From: Natrialba sp. SSL1
GTDB lineage: Archaea > Halobacteriota > Halobacteria > Halobacteriales > Natrialbaceae
Length of the DNA stretch: 64,000 bases
Direction: 5' to 3'
Assembly (NCBI RefSeq): GCF_001861355.1
Contig: NZ_MASN01000018.1
Location: 124,001-188,000 of the forward strand
The position numbers were made by a program, and so were the translations under genes. The notes beneath the pieces were generated by a model. That model was not told where the DNA came from and made no database searches. It saw nothing but the letters and a program-made list of their open reading frames with translations. Shown in pieces: positions 25,476-37,896 of the stretch. Numbering within the stretch: position 1 is the stretch's first letter; each line of letters starts with the position of its first letter.

Positions 25476-26606
25476 ATGACCGAACGGTACGACGTCATCG
25501 TCCTCGGCGTCGGCGGCATGGGAAGTGCAGCCGTCTCTCACCTCGCCGACCGCGGCGTCGACGTCCTCGGCCTCGAGCGCTACGACGTCCCGCACGGCTA
25601 CGGCTCCTCCCACGGCATCACCCGCATCTTCCGACTCGCGTACTACGAACACCCCGCCTACGTCCCGCTGCTCAAGCGCGCCGACGAACTCTGGACGGCA
25701 CTCGAGGACACCCACGATCAGCAGCTACTGCACCGCACCGGATCGATCGACGCCGGTCCGCAGGACAGTTCGCTCGTCGAGGGATCGAAACGCTCCTGTG
25801 CGGAACACGACCTCGATCACGAGGTGTGCTCGAGTAGCGAACTCACAGAACGGTATCCGGGTTACCAGCTTCCGGAAGGGTACGAAGCAGTCTACCAGCC
25901 CGAAGGTGGCTTTCTGGTTCCCGAGGAGTGTATCGTCGCACACGTAAATCGAGCCCATCAGCATGGGGCAACGATCCGCGCCCGCGAGCGGGTTGTCGAG
26001 TGGCAACCAACGGACGACGACGGCGTCCGCGTCGAGACCGACTACGGCGTCTACGAGGCCGACAGGCTCGTCGTCACCGCCGGTGCGTGGGCTGCGAGAT
26101 TCGTCGACGAACTCGAGGGCGTTGCGGTCCCCGAACGACAGGTTCTCGCCTGGCTCCAGCCCGAGGAGCCTGCACGCTTCGAACCCGACGCGTTCCCCGT
26201 CTGGAACCTGCAGGTCCCCGAGGGACGGTACTACGGCTTCCCGGTCCACGGCGTCCCGGGGTTCAAATTCGGCCGGTACAACCACCGCGAGGAGACCGTC
26301 GATCCCGAGGCGTTCGAGCGCGAGCCGACACAGGCTGACGAACGCCTGCTGCGTGAGTTCGCCGAGCAGTATTTCCCCGACGGCGCGGGACCGACGATGC
26401 GACTCGAAACCTGCCTGTTCACGAATACGCCGGACGACCACTTCGTGATCGACACCCTGCCAGACCGGCCGCAGGTCTCCGTCGCGGCCGGCTTCTCGGG
26501 TCACGGCTTCAAGTTCGCCAGCGTAATCGGCGAGATTATGGCCGACCTGGCACTCGAGGGCGAGACCGAGCACGACATCGAGATGTTTTCGCTGGACCGG
26601 TTCTGA
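25476..26606 (+). CDS. Sarcosine oxidase / N-methyltryptophan oxidase-like FAD enzyme
   Basis: The 376-residue protein starts with an FAD-binding Rossmann motif, DVIVLGVGGMGSAAVSHLAD (G-x-G-x2-G), followed by GYGSSHGITRIFRLAYYEHP, which is typical of the monomeric sarcosine oxidase/SolA family. The end GFSGHGFKFASVIGEIMADL is the second FAD contact. In the family a Cys (here in LRLETCLFTNTPD, seen as ETCLFTNTPDD) covalently binds the flavin. The reaction is oxidation of an N-methyl or secondary amine; the exact substrate is unknown. It stands alone, with no visible operon partner. Confidence 0.9.
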   Translation: MTERYDVIVLGVGGMGSAAVSHLADRGVDVLGLERYDVPHGYGSSHGITRIFRLAYYEHPAYVPLLKRADELWTALEDTHDQQLLHRTGSIDAGPQDSSLVEGSKRSCAEHDLDHEVCSSSELTERYPGYQLPEGYEAVYQPEGGFLVPEECIVAHVNRAHQHGATIRARERVVEWQPTDDDGVRVETDYGVYEADRLVVTAGAWAARFVDELEGVAVPERQVLAWLQPEEPARFEPDAFPVWNLQVPEGRYYGFPVHGVPGFKFGRYNHREETVDPEAFEREPTQADERLLREFAEQYFPDGAGPTMRLETCLFTNTPDDHFVIDTLPDRPQVSVAAGFSGHGFKFASVIGEIMADLALEGETEHDIEMFSLDRF

Positions 26607-26696: not shown

Positions 26697-28229
26697 CTAC
26701 TGCGTCGTCGACGACGGGTTGGCGTCCTGAGTAGTCGGCTCGGTGTCCGTTTCAGCATCCGATTCTGATTCCGATGCCACCGTATCGCGTCCGTTCTCTT
26801 CCCCGATCCACTCGAGTGTGTCTTCGTCCTCGCTATCGTCGCTACCTCCGCACTCGCTTTCACCCTCGTCTTGCGTTTGCGTGTGGTCTCGTTCCTGGGA
26901 GGCCTGGTCCTGTTCCCGGTTCTGCGTCCGCTCCCGCCCTCGGTCACCGTCCACAGCCGGCACTCCAGCACTCGGCGGCTCGAACACGTACACCACATCC
27001 GTCCCCCGAACCAGATACCGCGCCGTCCGCTCGTCGAACACCAGCGGCGACTCGAGATCGAGCGCCAACTCGGCCAGCGCCGCCAGCGACTGAACCGATG
27101 CCGTCGGCTCCGTGACCGCCGATTCGGGTAGCACCACCCGCGTCGTCATCGGATCGAACTCCGCGCGCGCATCGAGGTACTCGAGTCGCGTCCGATCGGC
27201 GGGCGTCAGTTCTGGGAACCGACGCGAGGCAAGGGCGGTCCCCCCAAGACCTGCGAGTCCGAACACGACCAGCAGCGGGCCGCCGAGAGCCTGCGTCGGA
27301 CTCGGGTCAACGGGCACGGTGACCGCTTCGTGTTCGTCGTGGCGCTCGGTGTAGGCATCGCCCGCGGCGTCGGTCTCGAACTGGTAGGTCGATCCGTCCG
27401 TTGCCACCGAAATCGGGACCTGATAGTGGTCGACGACGACCTGGGAGGTGCCGTCGAACGTCCCCTCGATTTCGCGCTCGAACGCGAGGACGAGTTCGGC
27501 TTCACCGGGCGTTGCACCGACCTCATCGCGGATGGACTCGAGTGTGGTCTGTGCGTCGGTGACGTTCAACTCGAACGAAGCGGTGACATCGTCGTCGGAG
27601 CCGACGTCCGATTCGGAGACGCTCGTGAGCTGTTCGCGTTCGGTCCAGTAGACAGTGCTATCGCCAGTCGCACTGGGTTCGCCGCTCTGTTGACTTTCGC
27701 CAGTGGTCTCCTGATAGACTAAATCGACGGTTACCGTCACAGCGACATCGTCTGCGGTCGTTTCCGGTGCGAGGTCGTAGCCTGCGGTAACTGCCCCCGT
27801 TGCGGTCGGCGTTACGGCGGTGTAGTAGAGAGGCTCGTCGGTGAGTTCCGTGCCTTCGTCGTGAACCGTCGTCGGTTCCGTGACGACTGCTGCGTGGCTG
27901 ACGTCGCCGGTTGCCGTCCAATCGGTGACGACCTGCTGTTCGGTCTCGGTGCCGGGTGCGGCGTACGCGCCGTAGCTCACCCAGATTCCCACGCCGAGCA
28001 CCGCGACGGCGAGGAGATAGAGCACAACCCGGTACTCCCAGAGCAGGGCCCGAAGCCGGAGTCTGCGATGGGCTTCGTCGCCAGGTTCGGCCGTGTTTTG
28101 GCTGTGGTTGCTGCCGCCACCGTCGCTGTCGCCGCCCCCGTCCCCATCGCCGTCACCCCGACGGACGCCATCACGGTCGTGTTCATCCCCCGATACTCTC
28201 CCGGACGTCGAGTCATCCGATGTGTGCAT
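26697..28229 (-). CDS. DUF5305-like membrane protein
   Basis: The 510-residue protein has an acidic/Gly-rich N-terminus, a first TM helix (VVLYLLAVAVLGVGIWVSYG, ~residues 70-90), a beta-rich outer domain (~95-310), a second TM helix (ALGGPLLVVFGLAGLGGTAL) and a cytosolic C-terminal part ending in a repeat-rich acidic tail. This matches the DUF5305 layout. It begins two bases after the stop of the signal peptidase gene, so the two should be co-translated. DUF5305 genes commonly accompany archaeal SipW-like signal peptidases; a role in anchoring or assembling exported surface proteins is inferred. Confidence 0.85.
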   Translation of the reverse strand: MHTSDDSTSGRVSGDEHDRDGVRRGDGDGDGGGDSDGGGSNHSQNTAEPGDEAHRRLRLRALLWEYRVVLYLLAVAVLGVGIWVSYGAYAAPGTETEQQVVTDWTATGDVSHAAVVTEPTTVHDEGTELTDEPLYYTAVTPTATGAVTAGYDLAPETTADDVAVTVTVDLVYQETTGESQQSGEPSATGDSTVYWTEREQLTSVSESDVGSDDDVTASFELNVTDAQTTLESIRDEVGATPGEAELVLAFEREIEGTFDGTSQVVVDHYQVPISVATDGSTYQFETDAAGDAYTERHDEHEAVTVPVDPSPTQALGGPLLVVFGLAGLGGTALASRRFPELTPADRTRLEYLDARAEFDPMTTRVVLPESAVTEPTASVQSLAALAELALDLESPLVFDERTARYLVRGTDVVYVFEPPSAGVPAVDGDRGRERTQNREQDQASQERDHTQTQDEGESECGGSDDSEDEDTLEWIGEENGRDTVASESESDAETDTEPTTQDANPSSTTQ

Positions 28230-28231
28230 TG

Positions 28232-29422
28232 TCAGTACAACCTCCGAACGAACGCGTGTATTCGCGACCGCCGCGACCGCTGTGATCCCCGTGATCGACG
28301 CAGTCGGCCGTGATTCGAACCCTGCTGTGGCGTCTCCGATCCAAGCAGTAGTCGACCGAGTCCGTAAGTTCCGCCGCCGCCGACGGCGAGAATCGCCCCG
28401 AACGGAACCCAGGGATGAATGTCGTAGAGCGCGTCGAGAACCGGTGCCGGCAACAGGTGCAGATACCGGTACTCCGTCACGTACGCAGGATAGTACCCCG
28501 TCTCCTCGGGTGCCGTAATCGTGACCGCAACCTCACTCGTCGATTGCGGGGCTACCGTTTCCCGACTCGCGTCGAGTGTCGCGTGTTCGCTCCCCGACTC
28601 CACGTACGAGACGACCGGTACGTAGCCGGTGTTCGGAACCTGATAGGCCAGTTCATCTGACGTTCCTCGTTCGACGACGAGTGGCTGCTCCGAATCGAAA
28701 TCCGCACTCACGACATCGTAGGTGTGCGTTCCGCCAGGAACGACCATCGCGGCCGCCGCACCGACGACGACAAGCACGGCAAACCCGGCACAGAGTTGGC
28801 GCTGCGTGAGGCCGGTACTCGAGTCCGATCCGGTGACCCGTGAGTCGAACGTCTGTTGGCTGCGCTCGCGAACCGTCTCGACTGCGTAGAGCGTGATCGA
28901 GAGTGCAAGGATGAGGAGCGCGAGTCCCGAACTCCCGAGAAGTGACCGGACACCGAGTGTCGTCCCGAGCCAGGTCTGGGCGCGGTCAAGCGCCGACCCC
29001 GCGGCCATAATGGCAGTTCCAAGCGACGGAATCGTCACCGGTTCACCGCCGAGTTCCCACACGGAGGCGACGATCTGTCCGTCCTGAACGGGCGGCTCGC
29101 CGTTGTCCTGGTCGGTAAAGGGGTTCGCGTCCCCCTGGGTCGTGTACCCGTGGTCGGTCTCCCCGACGATCCGGTGTGTCGTGAGTTCGCCGCCCTCGAT
29201 TTCTTGTGCTTCGAAGACGACAACGTCGCCGGGTTCGGGGCTGCCGGTGAGTGCCGCAGGGACGGCGACGAAGCCGTCGCCGGTGTCGATCGTTGGCTCC
29301 ATACTACCGGTTTCGACGAAGCCGAGCAGGACCGGTTGACCGAGTAGTTGACCGGCAACGAGGGCGATGAGCGCAACTGCGATACCCCCCTGTACCGCGA
29401 GTTCGACAGCCCCCTTGCTCAT
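28232..29422 (-). CDS. Signal peptidase I, archaeal Ser/His (SipW-like) type, with outer domain
   Basis: The 396-residue membrane protein has an N-terminal TM helix, then the S26B catalytic serine in VETGSMEPTI (S40), the histidine in TTHRIVGET (H83) in place of the bacterial lysine, and an acidic motif GDANPFTDQDN. This is the ER/archaeal/SipW type. After a second TM helix (~155-175), residues ~185-355 contain a third helix and a beta-rich extracellular region (TSEVAVTITAPEETGYYPAY). A final TM helix and basic C-terminus close it. Ordinary archaeal signal peptidases are much shorter, so this is a fusion. It should cleave the neighbouring secreted proteins. Confidence 0.92.
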   Translation of the reverse strand: MSKGAVELAVQGGIAVALIALVAGQLLGQPVLLGFVETGSMEPTIDTGDGFVAVPAALTGSPEPGDVVVFEAQEIEGGELTTHRIVGETDHGYTTQGDANPFTDQDNGEPPVQDGQIVASVWELGGEPVTIPSLGTAIMAAGSALDRAQTWLGTTLGVRSLLGSSGLALLILALSITLYAVETVRERSQQTFDSRVTGSDSSTGLTQRQLCAGFAVLVVVGAAAAMVVPGGTHTYDVVSADFDSEQPLVVERGTSDELAYQVPNTGYVPVVSYVESGSEHATLDASRETVAPQSTSEVAVTITAPEETGYYPAYVTEYRYLHLLPAPVLDALYDIHPWVPFGAILAVGGGGTYGLGRLLLGSETPQQGSNHGRLRRSRGSQRSRRSRIHAFVRRLY

Positions 29423-29555
29423 TGTCTGTACGCTACCGCCAACGTGGCTATATATTGAACTTTTGGCCTCGGGCGAATGTTCTGCCTGGTACCAATTTCT
29501 CGGTGGGCCGTCACAGACACCCCTCTCAACCCCGTGCCTGAACGGATTCCCCGTC

Positions 29556-31253
29556 TCATGTGAGCCGGAACCGGAGTACACCGATCGTGAGGACGATTAC
29601 AACCACGGTAGCGGCGATCCCGCCCGGCCCAGTGCCGAAAACGGACGGAACCGAGTCGGTGACGATCGCTCCCGCCGTTCCATCGTCGTCACCACTACCG
29701 GATATACCAGCGTTCCTCTCCGAGGACCTACTCTCACCGCCGTCAGCACTGGAGCCACCGGGAGCGTCACCGAGGAACTGTCCCGTCGCCTGGACGGTCC
29801 CCTCCGCAACGAGGAACGAACTCGAAGACGGCGTGTACGCGTATGAGAGCTCAATCGTCTCCGCCGACACCGACTCCTCGTCCGTCGCATCACTGCTGGT
29901 CACACTCGAGTCCAACTCCGAACTGAGGTCGAACGACACGTCGGTCGACTCGTTCGGGGCGACCGTCAGTGTCCGCTCGGTGACGTGCTCGCCGTCGACG
30001 ACGAGATCGAGCGCCACGGCTGCTTCCTCGTCCACGTCGTTTTCGATCGTCGTACTGACGACCGTCGTCTCACCCCCGCTCGCCGCCGTCTCCTCGACGG
30101 TGAGCGGTTCGACGCGCAACAACGGCGCGTCGACACCGATTGCGGTCATCACCGGCTCGCCACGGATGACACCGACGAGTTCCTCGTCGTGATCACTCTC
30201 CGGCTGCACGCTATCGACGAACTCGAGTTCGCGTTCCTGCCACGCCGTCCCGTCGTGCTGGTAGGCCGTCAGCGACGCAGCGTCGAGCCCCATCGTTTCG
30301 AGCCACGTCTGGTCGATGACGACCGTCTGAGCGATCCCCTGCGGTTTCACGTCCTCCGCAGCCAGCCCGCTAACGGTGTAGCTCCCGACCGGAACCGAGC
30401 CGGTTTCCTCGTGCAGGTCACCGACGGATCGGAACGGCGACTTGGTGCTCTCAGCGTCGGCAGTGGCGGCGTCCGATGCAAGAACCTCGAACGCAATCTC
30501 ATCGCCGCGCTCCGCTTCGTCCGCGAACGCAATCGCCATCGACTCGAGTACCGCCTCATCACCGACCGGAAGCGACTGTAGCGGAATCCGTTCGGGCTTG
30601 CAGGTCTGGACGTCCGTTACGGAGACCGCCCGCTCACTCGGTGACGGCGAGTCAACGGCAACCGACGCTGGCTGACAGGTGGTGCCAGCCGGCGGAGATG
30701 GTGTTGGTGTGCCCGAGTCATCCGACCCGTCCGCATCATCGGGACCCACCGCGTTCACCTCGACGGCTCCATCGAGCACGTCGCCAGCAGTATATCCCGT
30801 CGCATCGAGCGTCAATCCCACCGCAATGGACTCGTTCGACTCGAGAATCACGCCCTCGTCTTCGCTCCCGATCGGCCCCGAAGCGGAATGGTACTCGAGT
30901 TCGGGAAGATCACTCTCGAGCCAGATCAGTGCCTCTTCGGTGCCGGTGTACGTAACCGTGAACACGTTCTGGATGTCGCTTACTGTGCCAGGTGGGACAC
31001 CATCGTGGTCGTCGATTTCACCGGTGAGTTCGATCGCGAACGTTTCATTTTCGACCGAAGCGTAGACACTGTTTGGCCCATCAGAGGGTTCGAGGACGAT
31101 GTCGTCGAGAACTTCGTCCTGTTCGTAATCTGAGCCTGGGCCGAGACTGCTGACAGCGTCAGTCGACAGGGGAACGGCACCAGTGCCGACGGCAGAAGCG
31201 ACGAACAGAACGGCGACGAGTGCGGTGAGTTGGACGGTTCGGGATCGGCTCAT
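29556..31253 (-). CDS. Large secreted or surface-anchored protein
   Basis: The 565-residue protein has an N-terminal signal sequence (VQLTALVAVLFVASAVGTGA), a domain related to the small secreted proteins of the locus (SVYASVENETFAIELTGEID; ESNESIAVGLTLDATGYTAG), a Pro/Thr linker, a central region resembling PGF-pre-PGF surface proteins (VVIDQTWLETMGLDAASLTA), a beta-sandwich (EETAASGGETTVVSTTIEND), a Ser/Gly stalk and a C-terminal TM helix (GIAATVVVIVLTIGVLRFRL). It lies between the signal peptidase and a small hypothetical gene. The product is probably a wall-anchored component of the exported structure. Confidence 0.78.
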   Translation of the reverse strand: MSRSRTVQLTALVAVLFVASAVGTGAVPLSTDAVSSLGPGSDYEQDEVLDDIVLEPSDGPNSVYASVENETFAIELTGEIDDHDGVPPGTVSDIQNVFTVTYTGTEEALIWLESDLPELEYHSASGPIGSEDEGVILESNESIAVGLTLDATGYTAGDVLDGAVEVNAVGPDDADGSDDSGTPTPSPPAGTTCQPASVAVDSPSPSERAVSVTDVQTCKPERIPLQSLPVGDEAVLESMAIAFADEAERGDEIAFEVLASDAATADAESTKSPFRSVGDLHEETGSVPVGSYTVSGLAAEDVKPQGIAQTVVIDQTWLETMGLDAASLTAYQHDGTAWQERELEFVDSVQPESDHDEELVGVIRGEPVMTAIGVDAPLLRVEPLTVEETAASGGETTVVSTTIENDVDEEAAVALDLVVDGEHVTERTLTVAPNESTDVSFDLSSELDSSVTSSDATDEESVSAETIELSYAYTPSSSSFLVAEGTVQATGQFLGDAPGGSSADGGESRSSERNAGISGSGDDDGTAGAIVTDSVPSVFGTGPGGIAATVVVIVLTIGVLRFRLT

Positions 31254-31325
31254 TATTGGATTCCGGTGGGTGGTCTTTGCAGTGGGGTTTCGTCTCGGGC
31301 GCTGCTCGTGTGCTGTTGTTAGTGG

Positions 31326-31763
31326 TCAGTTTTCGTTGTGTCCGCCAAATTCGGTAGATTCGTCAGATTCAGAGGACTCGTCAGATCCGTTGGGGTCGTT
31401 CGGAGAGCCAGCAGTGCGAGCTGTCGAGCGCACCCACAGCTTGACCTCCGAAACGAGTACGTGGTCTTGCTGATAGCCGTCGATGTCGTAATCGACGGTG
31501 ATGTAGGTGATTTCGCGTTCCTCGACGACATACGTCGCCTCTGTCGACTCCTCACAATAGCTAACGGCGTTCGTTTCAAAGTCGCCCTCCGCTTTCGCTT
31601 CGACGAACGAGACGCGATCCCCAGGGTCGGGGATCACGATCGACGATGCATCGTAGATTGCGTCGATGAGTTCGTCACTTTCGGCCTCGTAGACGTAGAG
31701 TGAGGTTTGATCAGTGTTCGGTCCTGCTGTTGGGCTGCGTACGTGTTCGTGTGTAGATGTCAT
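31326..31763 (-). CDS. Small protein of unknown function in the SipW-like locus
   Basis: The 145-residue protein has no signal peptide or TM segment. Its core is YDASSIVIPDPGDRVSFVEA followed by YVVEEREITYITVDYDIDGY and HVLVSEVKLWVRS, a mixed alpha/beta pattern common to haloarchaeal small cytosolic proteins, but I do not know the family. The C-terminus is Ser/Asp/Glu-rich and repeat-like (GSDESSESDESTEFGG). It is 72 bases upstream of the large surface protein on the same strand. Its presence inside the cluster is notable. Confidence 0.62.
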   Translation of the reverse strand: MTSTHEHVRSPTAGPNTDQTSLYVYEAESDELIDAIYDASSIVIPDPGDRVSFVEAKAEGDFETNAVSYCEESTEATYVVEEREITYITVDYDIDGYQQDHVLVSEVKLWVRSTARTAGSPNDPNGSDESSESDESTEFGGHNEN

Positions 31764-32150
31764 TCTGAGACGTGTCGGGTGTTCGTCGTGGAAGGCAACA
31801 GCTCAGTTGCGGAGACGTCTCTCGTTGTTGATCGAACGATAGCTACGTCATCCATAGCGTACCGAAGCATTCGTAACAGGCTCACAAAAGATATCTTGGT
31901 CAGACAACCATTGTAATACAAGAATTGACCGCGAGAACGGCAAGACTCAACACCAAACTGCCCGATCTGTTCAACTGTATTGACAGCATTGACCGATCTA
32001 AATCACGGCTGGCGGTAACACACATTAGTAAAATGGTACATTGAAGCACAGTACTGCGAAATGCTACTGGTTGAGTACTGTAAAAACCATCTGGAAATAA
32101 CCCTTCGAAAGATCTTCAACCAAAATCAACAGCAGTGGTTATTACAGCGG
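31764..32150. other. AT-rich intergenic region with ATTACAAT box
   Basis: About 390 bases with no credible gene. It includes the 8-mer at 31910-31917 that recurs before two other genes of this locus, and AT-rich stretches (for example around 32030-32110). It probably contains the promoter of the 31763-26697 block and the terminator of the upstream block. Confidence 0.5.
31910..31917 (-). promoter_or_regulatory. ATTACAAT box (copy 1)
   Basis: On the minus strand ATTACAAT, 147 bases before the ATG at 31763. Identical 8-mers are at 33401 and 34289. Confidence 0.4.
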
Positions 32151-32711
32151 TCAGTCTACTCTGGTTGCCTTAATAGTGACGCCAGTTTCGTAGGTCCCTC
32201 CTGAACTCAGTCCGTGTGTATCGATCTCAATGCCAGCAGCGATACTCTCGCCTGGTTCAAGTTCAGGAGATGTCTCACGTAGTAGCGGCTTCAGTCCATC
32301 TTCGTTGCGATCGGACTCGACACAGAAGACGCCAATGTCTGGACCGGCTGCATCGGGTTCATCCGCTACGTCAGTGAGTGTTACTGTTCCTGTCCCTTCG
32401 TTACCAATTTCGAAAAGGCCTTCAGAGTCCTGTTCAACATCGCGTGCATACTGGACCGTAGCATCAACGTTTACTTTCTTATCATCATCACCTGGGAAGC
32501 TGAACTCTATCGTTCCGGTCGGGCGGTGAGCGCCGCTAGAGCGTTGGGGTACGCCTAGCGGTTCAAGTCTGAGAAGACCGTCCAGGTCACTAGTTACAGA
32601 AACATTGACGCCACGCTGGGCAGTGGAGTTACTGAACGCACCTGATCCAATACCTAAGGTACCAGCACTAGCCAAACCCACAAATCCAGCAAAGAATTGT
32701 CGTCTTTTCAT
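32151..32711 (-). CDS. Small secreted protein with SipW-type signal peptide (A)
   Basis: A 186-residue protein, MKRRQFFAGFVGLASAGTLG then GSGAFSNSTAQR, a hallmark (GxGAFSxxxAxR) shared with its two neighbours and typical of SipW-dependent or DUF1102-like archaeal signal peptides. The mature part is beta-rich and acidic (VNVSVTSDLDGLLRLEPLGV; SPELEPGESIAAGIEIDTHG), fitting a TasA/camelysin-like Ig fold. It lies 40 bases after the stop of protein B on the same strand and is probably co-transcribed. Export followed by assembly on the surface is inferred. Confidence 0.85.
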   Translation of the reverse strand: MKRRQFFAGFVGLASAGTLGIGSGAFSNSTAQRGVNVSVTSDLDGLLRLEPLGVPQRSSGAHRPTGTIEFSFPGDDDKKVNVDATVQYARDVEQDSEGLFEIGNEGTGTVTLTDVADEPDAAGPDIGVFCVESDRNEDGLKPLLRETSPELEPGESIAAGIEIDTHGLSSGGTYETGVTIKATRVD

Positions 32712-32751
32712 TGTATCACTTGGTTCTGCCCCGAGGCGATGGTGTTACTAT

Positions 32752-33273
32752 TTACCCACCGAGGTTGAACGTAATCGTCTCAGGCACAGCCTCGTCAATA
32801 GGCTGGTCAGCATCCTCACCAAATCCGCCACCTGGTCCATCAGGGCTCCAAAACCCGAACCCAATCGAAATGGATTCACCAGAGTCCAGGTACGGTCTCC
32901 CAGAGTCCCCGTCGAACACCTCGCCATTAACTAGAATGTGGAGACCATTATCTACGTCATCGTCCCATTCATCCTCGTTAAATCGGTCGAGATGCACATC
33001 TTCTTGTCCATTGTTGTGGATTTCGAAGACCTCGTTAAACGTGAAGTCTGCTTCGTCGTTGAGGTCGTCAAAGGTGACCTCGAGCAAGCCATCGTCATTG
33101 TAGTCCGCGTAGTCAGAGGTCGCTTCAAGCCGCATAACAGCAGCGTTGTCACCAGTGGTTTCAACAGTCACTGACCGCTGAGCTGTTGCATTCGAAAACG
33201 CACCCGTGCCCATCGCCGCAGCTGCTCCTGATGCCAGTGCTCCCATTCCGATTACGAATTTGCGTCGTTGCAT
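32752..33273 (-). CDS. Small secreted protein with SipW-type signal peptide (B)
   Basis: A 173-residue protein, MQRRKFVIGMGALASGAAAA then GTGAFSNATAQR. The mature region begins SVTVETTGDNAAVMRLEATS and ends with SGESISIGFGFWSPDGPGGG, a pattern like the other family members. The start ATG at 33273 is preferred over an upstream in-frame codon because it begins the basic signal peptide. The leader shares GAATCCAA just before the ATG with the surface-protein gene at 31253. It is upstream of protein A in the same orientation. Confidence 0.85.
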   Translation of the reverse strand: MQRRKFVIGMGALASGAAAAMGTGAFSNATAQRSVTVETTGDNAAVMRLEATSDYADYNDDGLLEVTFDDLNDEADFTFNEVFEIHNNGQEDVHLDRFNEDEWDDDVDNGLHILVNGEVFDGDSGRPYLDSGESISIGFGFWSPDGPGGGFGEDADQPIDEAVPETITFNLGG

Positions 33274-33551
33274 TGTTGGATTCTCCGTGTGTTGTCGCCT
33301 GCACGTCGCCACCGGCGGACACCGCGCCCACCCCGACACCGGTCGTCACCGCCGCAATCCCCATCGAGGGATCACAGATCACCCATCTCGAGCACCGGGT
33401 ATTGTAATATATTCGTGGACCAAATTATGGGAAAAATTGAGTCCGGTCAACGGTGCCGAGAGAACAGACCCGGAGCAGTATCAGACGAGTTGAAGCAACA
33501 CCGACACAGTAAACAGCGTATAGACCCGCGTCAACCGGTCACATCTCGCCG
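33274..33551. other. Intergenic region with ATTACAAT box
   Basis: The gap between proteins B and C is about 280 bases. An AT-rich patch at 33400-33415 contains the second ATTACAAT copy. A short frame on the minus strand (to 33382) is not acidic and has no family match. Confidence 0.5.
33401..33408 (-). promoter_or_regulatory. ATTACAAT box (copy 2)
   Basis: Minus strand ATATTACAAT, 128 bases before the ATG at 33273. Confidence 0.4.
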
Positions 33552-34151
33552 TCAAAACTCGTGTACGTCGAACGGGTTCGCAGCCGCTACAAACACCACC
33601 TGATCGAGAAGCGTCCCCGATCCACCGTCTTCGAGGACCGTCGTATCTAGAACGATATCCACGCGCGCCGACTCCCCCGGACCGAACGACGCGGCTCGAA
33701 TCGGAGCAGTCAGATCACTTTGTCCACCATCCGGCCAACGTTCCGTGGGAACGAACTGAATAGCGTCTTCCGGGAGCGTTTCGGTTACGTCCTTGCCATC
33801 CGCAAAGAGACGAGCACTGACTGCGCCGCGGTCGCGCGGTCCCGAGGCGTTTGATCCCTGATACCGAAGTGTAAACGCTTCCGCGAGTCGTGTTACAGCG
33901 TTCTGGTTCACACCTTCACCGGCCGTGACACTCCCATCGAGCCGCACGCGAAACTGACCTGTCTCGTCCTGATCGACGAAATCGGTCGAGTTCTCGGTCG
34001 CATCCAGTGCGAGATAGGCCGCCGAATCGTCTGCAACCGTTACGGAAACCGAGCGGCTCGCTTCGACACTCGAGAACGCACCCGTTCCGAGTATCGTACC
34101 TGTTCCTGCGGTGAGGGCTCCTACTCCGAGTATGACTGTGCGTCGTTTCAT
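33552..34151 (-). CDS. Small secreted protein with SipW-type signal peptide (C)
   Basis: A 199-residue protein, MKRRTVILGVGALTAGTGTI then GTGAFSSVEASR. The mature part starts VSVTVADDSAAYLALDATEN and contains ARVDIVLDTTVLEDGGSG, again beta-rich. ATG 34151 is chosen over an upstream frame to 34190 because the basic n-region begins there. The signature VTVADDSAAYLAL closely matches B (VTVETTGDNAAVMRL), so A-C are paralogues. It is the first gene of the minus-strand part of the locus and is divergent from the 34729 regulator. Confidence 0.85.
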   Translation of the reverse strand: MKRRTVILGVGALTAGTGTILGTGAFSSVEASRSVSVTVADDSAAYLALDATENSTDFVDQDETGQFRVRLDGSVTAGEGVNQNAVTRLAEAFTLRYQGSNASGPRDRGAVSARLFADGKDVTETLPEDAIQFVPTERWPDGGQSDLTAPIRAASFGPGESARVDIVLDTTVLEDGGSGTLLDQVVFVAAANPFDVHEF

Positions 34152-34288
34152 TGGTCGAGTTGGTCGAGTTGGTCGTATTTTGGTCGGCATTCCCGGGCGA
34201 AGCGATGAACACCCGCTCCGGAAGCAGGTTCGAATTGGACGACAGCGCTTCGATGCGGGACTCGTTTCTGTGGTAGTTTGGCTTAGTT

Positions 34289-34296
34289 ATTGTAAT
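34289..34296 (-). promoter_or_regulatory. ATTACAAT box (copy 3)
   Basis: Minus strand CCAATTACAATAAC, 138 bases before the ATG at 34151. Confidence 0.4.
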
Positions 34297-34710
34297 TGGT
34301 TAATATACTACACTCCACGAACCAGAGAGCAGGTTCAGGCTGTGCCAGAACGGGATTTGGACCGGTCATCGACGAAAGTGGGACGGAGAGTGAGGAGGGC
34401 GTCGACACTGGACTGCGCACGAACGCTGCTAGATGACGGACACCCGCAGACACAGCCGGGGTTGGTCCCGTATTAGCGAAGTTGACCGTCATTCAGGCTC
34501 GACCAGAGCATGAACACCCGCTAGATATGTGCTGTTGACTCCGCGCCAGCCAGGTATCACTACGGTTGACGAACGATACGCTGACTCATGCGCCACATTC
34601 ACTTACAGATACCACCCCAAAATCACGTTCTATAACCCGTCTATTGTCTGTTTTCTCCCACAGGCCGGATTGGTAATAGCCACATTCACTTCAGAAACCC
34701 TGAACGATAG

Positions 34711-34724
34711 ATAGATTTATCTAT
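34711..34724. promoter_or_regulatory. Palindrome/TATA element before the DUF7344 regulator
   Basis: ATAGAT-TT-ATCTAT is a perfect inverted repeat containing a TATA-like TTTATCTAT. It ends four bases before ATG 34729 and is about 27 bases before ATG 34747, where the spacing would suit a leaderless start. Confidence 0.5.
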
Positions 34725-34728
34725 AGAA

Positions 34729-35367
34729 ATGTTGACCCACCAACTGATGCGGGGGACCGGAATTGACTACACAACGGACGTACACGTCTCACAATCGAGT
34801 CAGGATGGGCTCACCGAGGACGAACTCTTCGAGTTGCTGTCGAACCGGCGACGGCGACACATTCTCCACACGCTCATTACCGAAACCGAGCAGGTCGATA
34901 TCGGGACGCTCTCACAGGAGATCGCCGCCGAGGAAGACGAGCTCGCGTTCGACGAAGTATCGAGTAGCGACCGAAAGCGCGTCTACACTGCACTCCAGCA
35001 ATCACACCTGCCGAAGATGGACAACGCGGGCGTACTCGAGTTCAACCGTGATCGCGGCACCGTCGAAGCGACGCCCGCGCTCGAGGACGTCGAAATTTAC
35101 ATGGATGTCGTCCGAGGGCGCGAGCTTCCGTGGAGTGACTACTATATTGGACTGACGGCGGTCATCGCCGTCGTTCTCGGCGGTGCGGCGCTTGGGCTCC
35201 CACCGTTTAGCTTCCTGACGATGACAGCGTGGGTCGCGTTCGTCATCGTCGCACTCGGTGTCTCGTCGATTTCACACCGGTATTACGCGCGCAAGAACCG
35301 CCTTGGAATCGGGTCATCACCACCGGGGAGTACCGAACTCGAGTATGACGAGTCTGCGTCCAAGTAA
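34729..35367 (+). CDS. Membrane-anchored DUF7344 regulator
   Basis: The 212-residue protein has a DUF7344 winged helix (DELFELLSNRRRRHILHTLI; then TALQQSHLPKMDNAGVLEFN) at residues ~25-110 and two C-terminal TM helices (YYIGLTAVIAVVLGGAALGL and MTAWVAFVIVALGVSSI). It should tether a DNA-binding domain to the membrane. It is divergent from the three secreted proteins and is a plausible regulator of the locus. The palindrome ahead of it suggests autoregulation. ATG 34747 (MRGTGIDYTT) is an alternative start, supported by the position of the TATA-like element. Confidence 0.85.
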   Translation: MLTHQLMRGTGIDYTTDVHVSQSSQDGLTEDELFELLSNRRRRHILHTLITETEQVDIGTLSQEIAAEEDELAFDEVSSSDRKRVYTALQQSHLPKMDNAGVLEFNRDRGTVEATPALEDVEIYMDVVRGRELPWSDYYIGLTAVIAVVLGGAALGLPPFSFLTMTAWVAFVIVALGVSSISHRYYARKNRLGIGSSPPGSTELEYDESASK

Positions 35368-35500
35368 CGACCGGGAAGTGCAGGGCAGTCGGTTCGACGG
35401 AGCGAGACACCAGAACGAGGCCTATGAGAGACAGCACAGAGACGACCGGAACGACAGAGATGGGGCGAGACGACAGCCAGCACGGTATTGTCGAACCTGA

Positions 35501-35698
35501 ATGGATTCGCGGATCAAGCTGGGTAAACGTGACAAGCGGGATAAACGGGACAAACAGCACAAACGAGACGAGCGAGAGAAGCAGCACAAACGAGCCAAGC
35601 GACAGAAGCAGCACAAACGGAACAAACGAGACAAGCGTCACAAGCGGGGAGTGGCAATGAACAGAACCGAGACACACAGCAGACAGACAACCCAATGA
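35501..35698 (+). CDS. Repeat-encoded, very basic small ORF (uncertain)
   Basis: The 65-residue frame is almost entirely Lys/Arg/Asp/Gln/His repeats (KRDKRDKRDKQHKRDE). Its TGA overlaps the ATG of the next gene as ATGA, suggesting translational coupling. The composition is the opposite of the acidic haloarchaeal proteome, and a second frame over the same DNA encodes repeated Asn-x-Ser/Thr sequons (NGTNSTNETS). It may be a real peptide, a leader, or just a tandem repeat. I make no functional claim. Confidence 0.35.
   Translation: MDSRIKLGKRDKRDKRDKQHKRDEREKQHKRAKRQKQHKRNKRDKRHKRGVAMNRTETHSRQTTQ
35519..35649 (+). repeat. Imperfect ~9-15-bp tandem repeat (ACAAACGAGACAAGC-like)
   Basis: The stretch is built from units like GGGACAAAC, CAGCACAAACGA and GACAAGCG. 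All three frames are open across much of it. It separates the DUF7344 regulator from the 35695 gene. Confidence 0.85.
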
Positions 35699-36870
35699 AA
35701 CGGACACGGCGTGGCGCGCTTGCACTGATCGCCGGCTCGAGTAGCCTGCTTGCGGTCGAAACGCTCGGGTACTCGAGTGGCAGTGTCGATCGGTCGCTCA
35801 ATGTCGATGTTGTCGACGACGAGCGGGCGTATCTGGGGCTCGATGAGGAAAGTCCGAACGACGGGCAGTTGTTCGACAGTTCGCGGCTGGCACCGGCGGT
35901 GTTCGACATTGCGAATCAGTTTCCGGTGCCGATCGAGGTTTCGGTTGCACTCGAGGCCGGTGACGGGAGTGAGAAAGCGACGAAAAGCGAGCGTGCGGAC
36001 GAGGACGCGAGCAGAGACGGAACCGAGAACCACCAGCACGACAATACCAGACCCGACCTCCGAGTCGGCACCCTCAACGGAGACGGTTACGTCATACCGG
36101 GAGTCCACGCGTCACTCGCTCCAGGAGCCCAACAGTCCAGACTCGCCATCGATCTGAACCCCTGTGGCATCAGTCGCGGCGAGCTCGCCACCGAGCGGTC
36201 CGGAACGCTCCTCATTACCGCCAAGAACAGTGCCACCGACGCAGAGGACTCGGAAGTGATAGCGACAGTAGCCAGATCGTTCGTACTCGAGTCGAATCTG
36301 CTCGCACGGATCAGCGTGCCGTGGTCAGATGCAGTTGCGGTGGTTAGAGAGCACCACGACGCGGAGCTGGTGATCGAAGTCGTCGACTGTCCAAGCGGAG
36401 AAACGAGAGCTCGTCTCGAGAGTGGCCTACGATTGCCGGGGATTCTTCGACTGGTTCCGGAAGTCGATGGAGCGTCGAGTTCACGACGAGCGGAGCAAGA
36501 GCACCACGAGATCGGTGTCGATTCGACCGACGAAATCGAGGCAACGGTTGAACGGTCGATGTCGAACGAGCCCGGGAATGGGGGTGGACCGGGAGAGAGC
36601 CCCGGAAGTGGTCCTGAAAACGGTTCAGGTGAGACACCCGGAAACGGCGCAGGAGATGGGGCGGGGAACGGACCGCCGAGTACATCCGATCACGGAGACG
36701 GCGACGACACCGAATCTGCCGAAGACAACGAAACCGACGACGAAACGACACAACAGCGTCCGGGTAGCGAGCCGTACGTCGAACTTGCGCCCGACTCACT
36801 CACTCCGGACGAGGAGAGTGCTGACGTTCCAACCGAAACGATTCGGATCCCGTTCCCGACGACTGACTGA
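35695..36870 (+). CDS. Secreted protein with divergent signal peptide and repeat-rich stalk
   Basis: The 391-residue protein has a basic n-region and hydrophobic core (MKRTRRGALALIAGSSSLLA), then SSGSVDRSLNVDVVDDERAY, which parallels the mature start of proteins A-C (x-R-x-V-x-V-x-x-D-x-x-A-x-L). A beta-rich region follows to ~residue 270, then a Gly/Pro/Ser/Asp-rich region (~280-350, GPGESPGSGPENGSGETPGN) and a C-terminal strand-like segment. No sorting motif or TM helix is visible at the end. It belongs with the locus and begins by the ATGA overlap with the repeat ORF. Confidence 0.75.
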   Translation: MKRTRRGALALIAGSSSLLAVETLGYSSGSVDRSLNVDVVDDERAYLGLDEESPNDGQLFDSSRLAPAVFDIANQFPVPIEVSVALEAGDGSEKATKSERADEDASRDGTENHQHDNTRPDLRVGTLNGDGYVIPGVHASLAPGAQQSRLAIDLNPCGISRGELATERSGTLLITAKNSATDAEDSEVIATVARSFVLESNLLARISVPWSDAVAVVREHHDAELVIEVVDCPSGETRARLESGLRLPGILRLVPEVDGASSSRRAEQEHHEIGVDSTDEIEATVERSMSNEPGNGGGPGESPGSGPENGSGETPGNGAGDGAGNGPPSTSDHGDGDDTESAEDNETDDETTQQRPGSEPYVELAPDSLTPDEESADVPTETIRIPFPTTD

Positions 36871-36975: not shown

Positions 36976-37896
36976 TCAGTGGCGGGCCAGAATCCCATCG
37001 GCGAACCGCTCCAGTCCGCGCTCTGCATCCTCGTTTTCGACCGAGACGATCGCGTGGTCGAGACCCAGCGCGTCGAGTCGTGCGAAATAGTCCTGGAACC
37101 ACTCCATTCCGGCCCGGTACCCCAGATGGAGCGGCTCCGGCTCCGCCTCAGGGTCGTCGGCGAATTCGACGCGAACCGCGATGGCGAAGGGTTTCTCGCC
37201 GGCGGCCTCGCGCCACTGTGCGAGGTAGCTCTCGAGTGTCGGCTCCGGCAGGTGGTAGAACAGCCAGCCGTCACCGTGGTCGGCGATCCAGGCGTCGGAC
37301 TGGCGTGCGTTGCCGGTCGGCAACAGCGGAATCGTCTCCGTCGTCGGCGTCGGAACGAGATCGAGGTCGCCCTTGAGGTGGCCCCACTGGCCATCGCGTT
37401 CGACGAAGTCTTCGCGCCAGAGCGTGCGGACGGTTTCGACGGCCTCGCGGAACAGTGCACCGCGTTCCTCGCGGTCGACGCCGAACGCCTCATACTCGGG
37501 GTCGCGGTCGCCGGAGGCCACACCGAGGACGAGTCGGCCGTCCGAGAGCTGGTCCACCGTGGCGGCGGCTTTCGCGACGTGAATCGGGTGCCGAAGCGGA
37601 AGAACGACACTCGAGGTGCCGAGTGCGATTTCGTCCGTGTGGGCCGCGACGTGTGAGAGCCACGGCCAGGTGTCGAACGTCTGGCCGGCATCGCCGAACT
37701 TCGGCCAGTACGTCGGAACGTCGCGCGCCCAGAGGCCGTCGAAGCCGAGTGTCTCGGCTCGCTGTGCGAGTTGTATCTCGGCTCCAACGTCGGGCATCGA
37801 CCAGTTCGTACCCGTTATGGGGAAGCCGACACCGAACGTCAGTCCGTCACCGCCGAACAGTCGCCGGTATCCAGCGTTTTCGTGTCCAGTCGGCAT
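36976..37896 (-). CDS. LLM-class (luciferase-like) F420/FMN oxidoreductase
   Basis: A 306-residue TIM-barrel flavin enzyme of the luciferase-like family. Visible blocks are TFGVGFPITGTNWSMPDVGA, AQRAETLGFDGLWARDVPTY, ALGTSSVVLPLRHPIHVAKA, DQLSDGRLVLGVASGDRDPE and the late LLPTGNARQSDAWIADHGDG. In archaea these enzymes usually use F420. The substrate is unknown. The start is ATG 37896. It is convergent with the 35695 gene and lies beside the M42 peptidase gene on the same strand, with 79 bases between. Confidence 0.9.
   Translation of the reverse strand: MPTGHENAGYRRLFGGDGLTFGVGFPITGTNWSMPDVGAEIQLAQRAETLGFDGLWARDVPTYWPKFGDAGQTFDTWPWLSHVAAHTDEIALGTSSVVLPLRHPIHVAKAAATVDQLSDGRLVLGVASGDRDPEYEAFGVDREERGALFREAVETVRTLWREDFVERDGQWGHLKGDLDLVPTPTTETIPLLPTGNARQSDAWIADHGDGWLFYHLPEPTLESYLAQWREAAGEKPFAIAVRVEFADDPEAEPEPLHLGYRAGMEWFQDYFARLDALGLDHAIVSVENEDAERGLERFADGILARH

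Follow-up and report, generated by a model that had tools for sequence, protein, structure and literature searches.

Archaeal bundling pili are filaments of the donor-strand type. Haloarchaea also form Tat-exported surface filaments, termed tafi, which have TafA as their core subunit and which, according to the account in PMC12687288, were first described in 2025 (Galeva et al. 2025, iScience 28:111793; doi 10.1016/j.isci.2025.111793). In Bacillus, the biofilm-fibre protein TasA is cut by an archaeal-like signal peptidase, as summarized in PMC10269814, and its assembly proceeds by donor-strand exchange (PMC9674648).

We analysed a stretch of 64,000 nucleotides (the window) from contig C18 (124001-188000) of a Natrialba genome of 4.58 Mb and compared its gene kinds with those of canonical tafi clusters (L088-L092). 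Positions 26697-36870 hold a surface-filament locus of nine genes, all of them intact, which very probably represents a divergent locus of the tafi type. Seven gene kinds are clustered there (pilins, TafC, TafF, DUF7344, DUF5305 and signal peptidase). In the canonical cluster L088, which comes from another family, TafA, TafC, TafE and TafF scored 251, 568, 225 and 582 bits against the NCBIfam Taf models (NF052520-NF052523), all above the curated cut-offs, and these genes adjoin DUF5305, DUF7344 and signal peptidase genes of the same types as those in the window. In the NCBIfam scan, the window proteins stayed below every Taf cut-off (best scores: TafE, 69.5 of 155 bits; TafA, 43 of 190; TafC, 35.3 of 410), and the large surface protein of the locus, Surf565, gave no match to the TafF model. 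We therefore do not file the window proteins as orthologues of TafA, TafE, TafC or TafF.

The locus shares with tafi clusters the pilins beginning RR...GxGAF, the TafC-like and TafF-like proteins, DUF7344, DUF5305 and a Ser/His peptidase with a C-terminal extension. It differs from them, apart from the lower scores, in its three tandem pilins, an additional gene for a 145 aa protein, the order and strands of its genes and a replaced pilin cassette. Judged by cluster order, DUF7344, the peptidase and DUF5305 may correspond to TafB, TafD and TafG, respectively. All ORFs listed in an earlier note on this DNA are present where that note places them, and the gene order, whose conservation across haloarchaea it had proposed as a check, is found again in N. 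hulunbeirensis and in a number of further genomes. Searches for bacterial-type promoters and Rfam families gave nothing above chance.

The dedicated signal peptidase (28232..29422, minus strand, ATG at 29422) has 396 aa including the C-terminal extension. Its residues S40 and H83, read in the earlier note as the Ser/His pair, were invariant in an alignment of 19 homologues. It matched the archaeal model TIGR02228 with 50.6 bits (E=1.9e-13), just short of the cut-off of 51.85, as well as SEC11A (E=2.8e-4), and we assign it to the archaeal/ER-type Ser/His class with its SEC11-like context. Two bases past its stop codon begins the gene of a DUF5305 membrane protein (26697..28229, minus strand, 510 aa; Pfam PF17231, E=1.2e-42), as had been noticed before. 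This protein has hydrophobic segments at residues 68-86 and 315-333 and a homologue in L088 (E=1.2e-35); it is the counterpart of the canonical taf DUF5305 gene product and likely an assembly or anchoring protein.

Upstream of the peptidase lies Surf565 (29556..31253, minus strand, 565 aa), which has a signal peptide, an N-terminal TafF-like domain and a C-terminal anchor. Its hydrophobic segments at residues 9-27 and 546-564 agree with the earlier description of a large, C-terminally anchored surface protein. The profile comparison by hhalign related Surf565 to the TafF family with 91% probability, for the N-terminal domain only; through an intermediate family the link was 99% (Surf565 to intermediate, 99.3%) and 97%. 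On the opposite strand are a DUF7344 winged-helix-like regulator (34729..35367; Pfam PF24035, E=1e-26), divergent from pilin C, and a TafC-like secreted protein (35695..36870, 391 aa) with an RR signal and an acidic low-complexity C-terminal part. The former has a homologue in the canonical cluster (E=4.7e-38) and one predicted transmembrane segment (residues 139-157), in line with the membrane anchor attributed to it previously; the latter matched TafC over residues 2-89 only (E=6.7e-9). The repeat ORF of the earlier note falls between these two genes. Tandem Repeats Finder (TRF) showed it to be a minisatellite of 9/18/27 bp units (35515-35648), which has a different length in N. hulunbeirensis and is missing from the third Natrialba species with a full locus, and we therefore rejected the ORF as a gene.

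Three paralogous secreted proteins, already recognized as such, occupy the centre of the locus on the minus strand: pilin A (32151..32711, 186 aa, TafE/TafA-like), pilin B (32752..33273, 173 aa from the ATG at 33273, TafE-like) and pilin C (33552..34154, 199-200 aa, TafE-like and conserved between species). They matched the TafE model with E=9.4e-7, 1.6e-18 and 2.9e-19, respectively, and the TafA model less well, in all cases below cut-off. For pilin C the TafE match persisted after removal of the signal peptide (E=6.4e-8). The common start of the three proteins runs from twin arginines to GxGAFS; their RR motifs (KRRQFF, QRRKFV and KRRTVI) are found at N-termini with no strongly hydrophobic segment, and we infer that the pilins are exported by the Tat pathway. 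These Tat-type signal peptides had escaped the earlier note, and they point to tafi as the right comparison.

The AlphaFold model of mature pilin C, built from an alignment of 68 relatives, had a pLDDT of 83. In a Foldseek search its best PDB match was the Tafi pilus of Natrinema sp. J7-2 (9p0a; E=4.5e-5, probability 1.00), with a modest TM-score of 0.53, an rmsd of 8.4 A and a sequence identity of only 18% between the aligned structures. The Pyrobaculum bundling pili (7ueg) followed with E=2.2e-4 and probability 1.00, and the Sulfolobus thread (7pnb) ranked eighth (E=4.4e-3, probability 0.99). The comparison with archaeal bundling pili suggested in the earlier note supports a pilin of the bundling-pilus type as far as the predicted fold is concerned. 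The Pyrobaculum pili resemble pilin C in fold but belong to another phylum, and the PDB sequence search gave no match to them. With 9p0a the likeness extends to sequence: pilins B and C matched its chain (E=2.3e-11 and 9.2e-13) including the signal peptide and the likely mature start, although single pilins did so chiefly in the N-terminal half. A literature search found no publication on 9p0a.

The 9p0a entry also bears on the site of cleavage. Searched against the PDB, the pilin profile matched the 9p0a chain with E=9.7e-18 from FSSVEADR at residue 28 onwards. The structure contains 188 residues of a 215 aa chain, and if the missing 27 are N-terminal, it starts with F28 directly after GTGA. 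Together, these observations make GxGA|FS the most likely signal-peptide cleavage site, with Phe as mature residue 1. Residues 1-20 of the pilin C model have no strand and contain its least confident part, as expected for a donor strand.

The earlier note had labelled the locus SipW/TasA-like. Its surface fibre and dedicated peptidase are supported; a true SipW/TasA-type biofilm-fibre operon, shared with or transferred from Bacillus, is in our judgement highly improbable. Both systems have a dedicated Ser/His signal peptidase beside the fibre subunits, mature TasA too begins with Phe (F28), and its processing and donor-strand assembly were introduced above. The peptidase even matches the SipW model NF046067 (E=1.5e-8), but its 34.5 bits fall far short of the cut-off of 190, and TIGR02228, the archaeal model, gives the stronger match. 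No TasA, TapA or camelysin model from Pfam or NCBIfam matched any window protein up to E=10, the subunits show no detectable homology, and TasA was absent among the best 50 structure matches of pilin C. The gene partners are haloarchaeal and the signal peptides carry RR motifs; the Bacillus TasA system is not known to have a Tat-type signal. On model scores and structure ranking we rejected descent from TasA/SipW in favour of the tafi type, and descent from camelysin is not supported either.

Loci with a pilin-like gene beside DUF5305 occur in most genomes of the host's family, and multiple copies per genome are frequent. Among the matches listed for 119 family genomes, 121 of 150 TafE-like hits lay at most 8 kb from one of the listed DUF5305 genes, where 0.9 were expected, so that the layout far exceeds chance. 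TafE-like genes were found in 107 and DUF5305 in 109 of the 119 genomes, and the ten without DUF5305 also had no TafE-like gene (Fisher p=6e-13, uncorrected for phylogeny). Pilin C gave no match in a plasmid collection. The Natrialba genome under study has a second complete taf-type locus (C4:3178-9683) with the same gene kinds in the same order; it has just one pilin, which is of the more common TafE-like type (112 bits), and lacks a 145 aa gene. Three further loci (L074, L121 and L075) have four to five TafE-like pilins of up to 573 aa adjoining DUF5305 and peptidase genes; between L074 and L121, the pilins are 100% and the peptidases 97% identical. A lone RR...GTGAFS pilin of 282 aa was seen at L072:6185-7030, and no further taf gene turned up in its vicinity.

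Given the second locus, the one in the window might be silent or a relic, and the C4 copy might make the real filament. Decay does occur in the genus: in N. chahannaoensis the locus is half-decayed, and three Natrialba species have no filament genes. However, all nine genes are intact both in the window and in N. hulunbeirensis, between which the peptidase and pilin C are 96% and DUF7344 97% identical, the last with a dN/dS of 0.11. We regard a relic as improbable and retain the reading of an intact tafi-type locus. In N. chahannaoensis, the peptidase and DUF5305 genes are missing, the 145 aa gene lies in two frames and the surface protein is truncated at the junction with the flanking oxidase gene.

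Between the window and N. hulunbeirensis, DUF5305, Surf565, the TafC-like protein and the 145 aa protein are 86, 81, 84 and 78% identical, respectively. The signal peptide of pilin B is identical in 25 of 25 residues, whereas mature pilin A is only 31-35% identical between Natrialba species and mature pilin B approximately 34% (the two are at ~34-35% with N. hulunbeirensis). In the DNA, the 97% identity with N. hulunbeirensis ends at position 33200; from there to ~31820 it is ~45%. The variable, low-G+C cassette thus delimited (31820..33199) comprises mature pilin B, pilin A and intergenic DNA; its upper break sits ~10 bp or less from the cleavage site of pilin B, and its lower end lies directly upstream of the 145 aa gene. 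Pilins A and B have a GC3 of 0.42-0.55 (A, 0.42) versus 0.72-0.80 in most conserved neighbours, with pilin C (0.57) and the 145 aa gene (0.63) in between. The third Natrialba species with a full locus differs in pilins A/B from both the window and N. hulunbeirensis.

These differences could also have arisen by rapid divergence driven by positive selection instead of replacement of a cassette. In all three species the A/B genes occupy the same positions and belong to one pilin family, and no close donor sequence for the cassette was found among 125 family genomes (best matches, 28-46% identity). Against this, the DNA identity falls from 97 to ~45% over 30 bp at the junction of signal peptide and mature pilin B, the GC3 of A and B departs from that of the conserved neighbours, and in most other close pairs the pilins are still 78-100% identical. 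We consider divergence alone rather unlikely and favour cassette replacement. A second lineage (L064/L065) has peptidases at 92% and pilins at 38% identity, with a dip in the TafC gene as well, which shows an independent replacement of pilins. Replacement is not a general rule: among eleven other groups, pilin identity is 78-100% in ten and 60% in one, and most close pairs in other genera retain their pilins. Silent pilin cassettes of the gonococcal type were not found in the same genome, whose pilins are the three of the window and the one at C4. The 145 aa gene occurs in both replacement lineages; as few groups were available and the comparison was post hoc, this is only a hint that the gene is tied to pilin replacement.

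The 145 aa gene (31326..31763, minus strand) is a lineage-specific addition to the locus. It encodes an acidic, probably cytosolic protein of no known family, with no match in Pfam, NCBIfam or the PDB and no predicted signal or transmembrane segment. Its low-confidence model (pLDDT 65, five strands) had no PDB structure match below E=0.2, so the fold gives the protein no function. The earlier statement that it has no counterpart holds in that it is absent from canonical clusters. The gene was found in ~12 genomes, all of the host's family, including N. hulunbeirensis, N. chahannaoensis, N. taiwanensis, N. aegyptia and N. asiatica. A metagenome-assembled genome (L068) has the gene without other locus genes. 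A remote relative (E about 1e-11) at L109:6668-7045 lies near genes resembling a phage integrase and a large P-loop NTPase, and no taf gene turned up in its surroundings.

Of the locus genes, N. taiwanensis, N. aegyptia and N. asiatica have kept the 145 aa gene and DUF7344 alone, still enclosed by the same flanks. In the window, these flanks read as one gene for an FAD oxidase-like protein (25476-26606) and one for an LLM-type oxidoreductase-like protein (36976-37896). No remnants of other locus genes were seen in these three, and the locus-type peptidase had no match in their genomes; among nine other genomes lacking TafE, two gave weak peptidase matches (E=1e-6 and 6e-12). The dN/dS values among the three species (0.14-0.16 for the 145 aa gene, 0.08-0.27 for DUF7344) indicate purifying selection and hence that both genes are maintained. 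The locus has these flanks also in the more distant genomes L064, L065 and L066, which makes loss of the filament genes in the three Natrialba species the simpler reading.

The proposal that the locus makes a surface fibre gains support from the dedicated peptidase, the gene order and the pilin of bundling-pilus type. We propose that pilins A, B and C would fold in the cytoplasm, leave it via Tat and be cleaved by the locus signal peptidase at GxGA|FS. The freed N-terminus would then complete the sheet of the next subunit by donor-strand complementation. Surf565, through its C-terminal membrane anchor, and DUF5305 may hold the filament and aid its assembly, the TafC-like protein may be an accessory, perhaps at the tip, and DUF7344 may control expression. 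Mature B and the whole of A would form a cassette swapped by recombination between close relatives, altering the filament surface; the export signal, the conserved and adaptor-like pilin C and the machinery would stay constant during the swap.

As a tafi-type locus it is ordinary in kind; unusual are its divergence, the pilin replacement and the retained cytosolic pair. The replacement, the restriction of the 145 aa gene to one family and the pair kept in three species go beyond the earlier note. Tentatively, and with some doubt, we suggest that the cassette, bounded by the conserved signal peptide and the 145 aa gene, is a surface-variation system, and that the 145 aa protein and DUF7344 form a control unit of their own, which would outlast the loss of the filament genes and then act on other genes. 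The sharp swap at the export-signal boundary suggests diversifying pressure on the filament surface, which may come from viruses, partner recognition or surface binding. With the pair retained, the three species offer a natural deletion experiment on the regulator.
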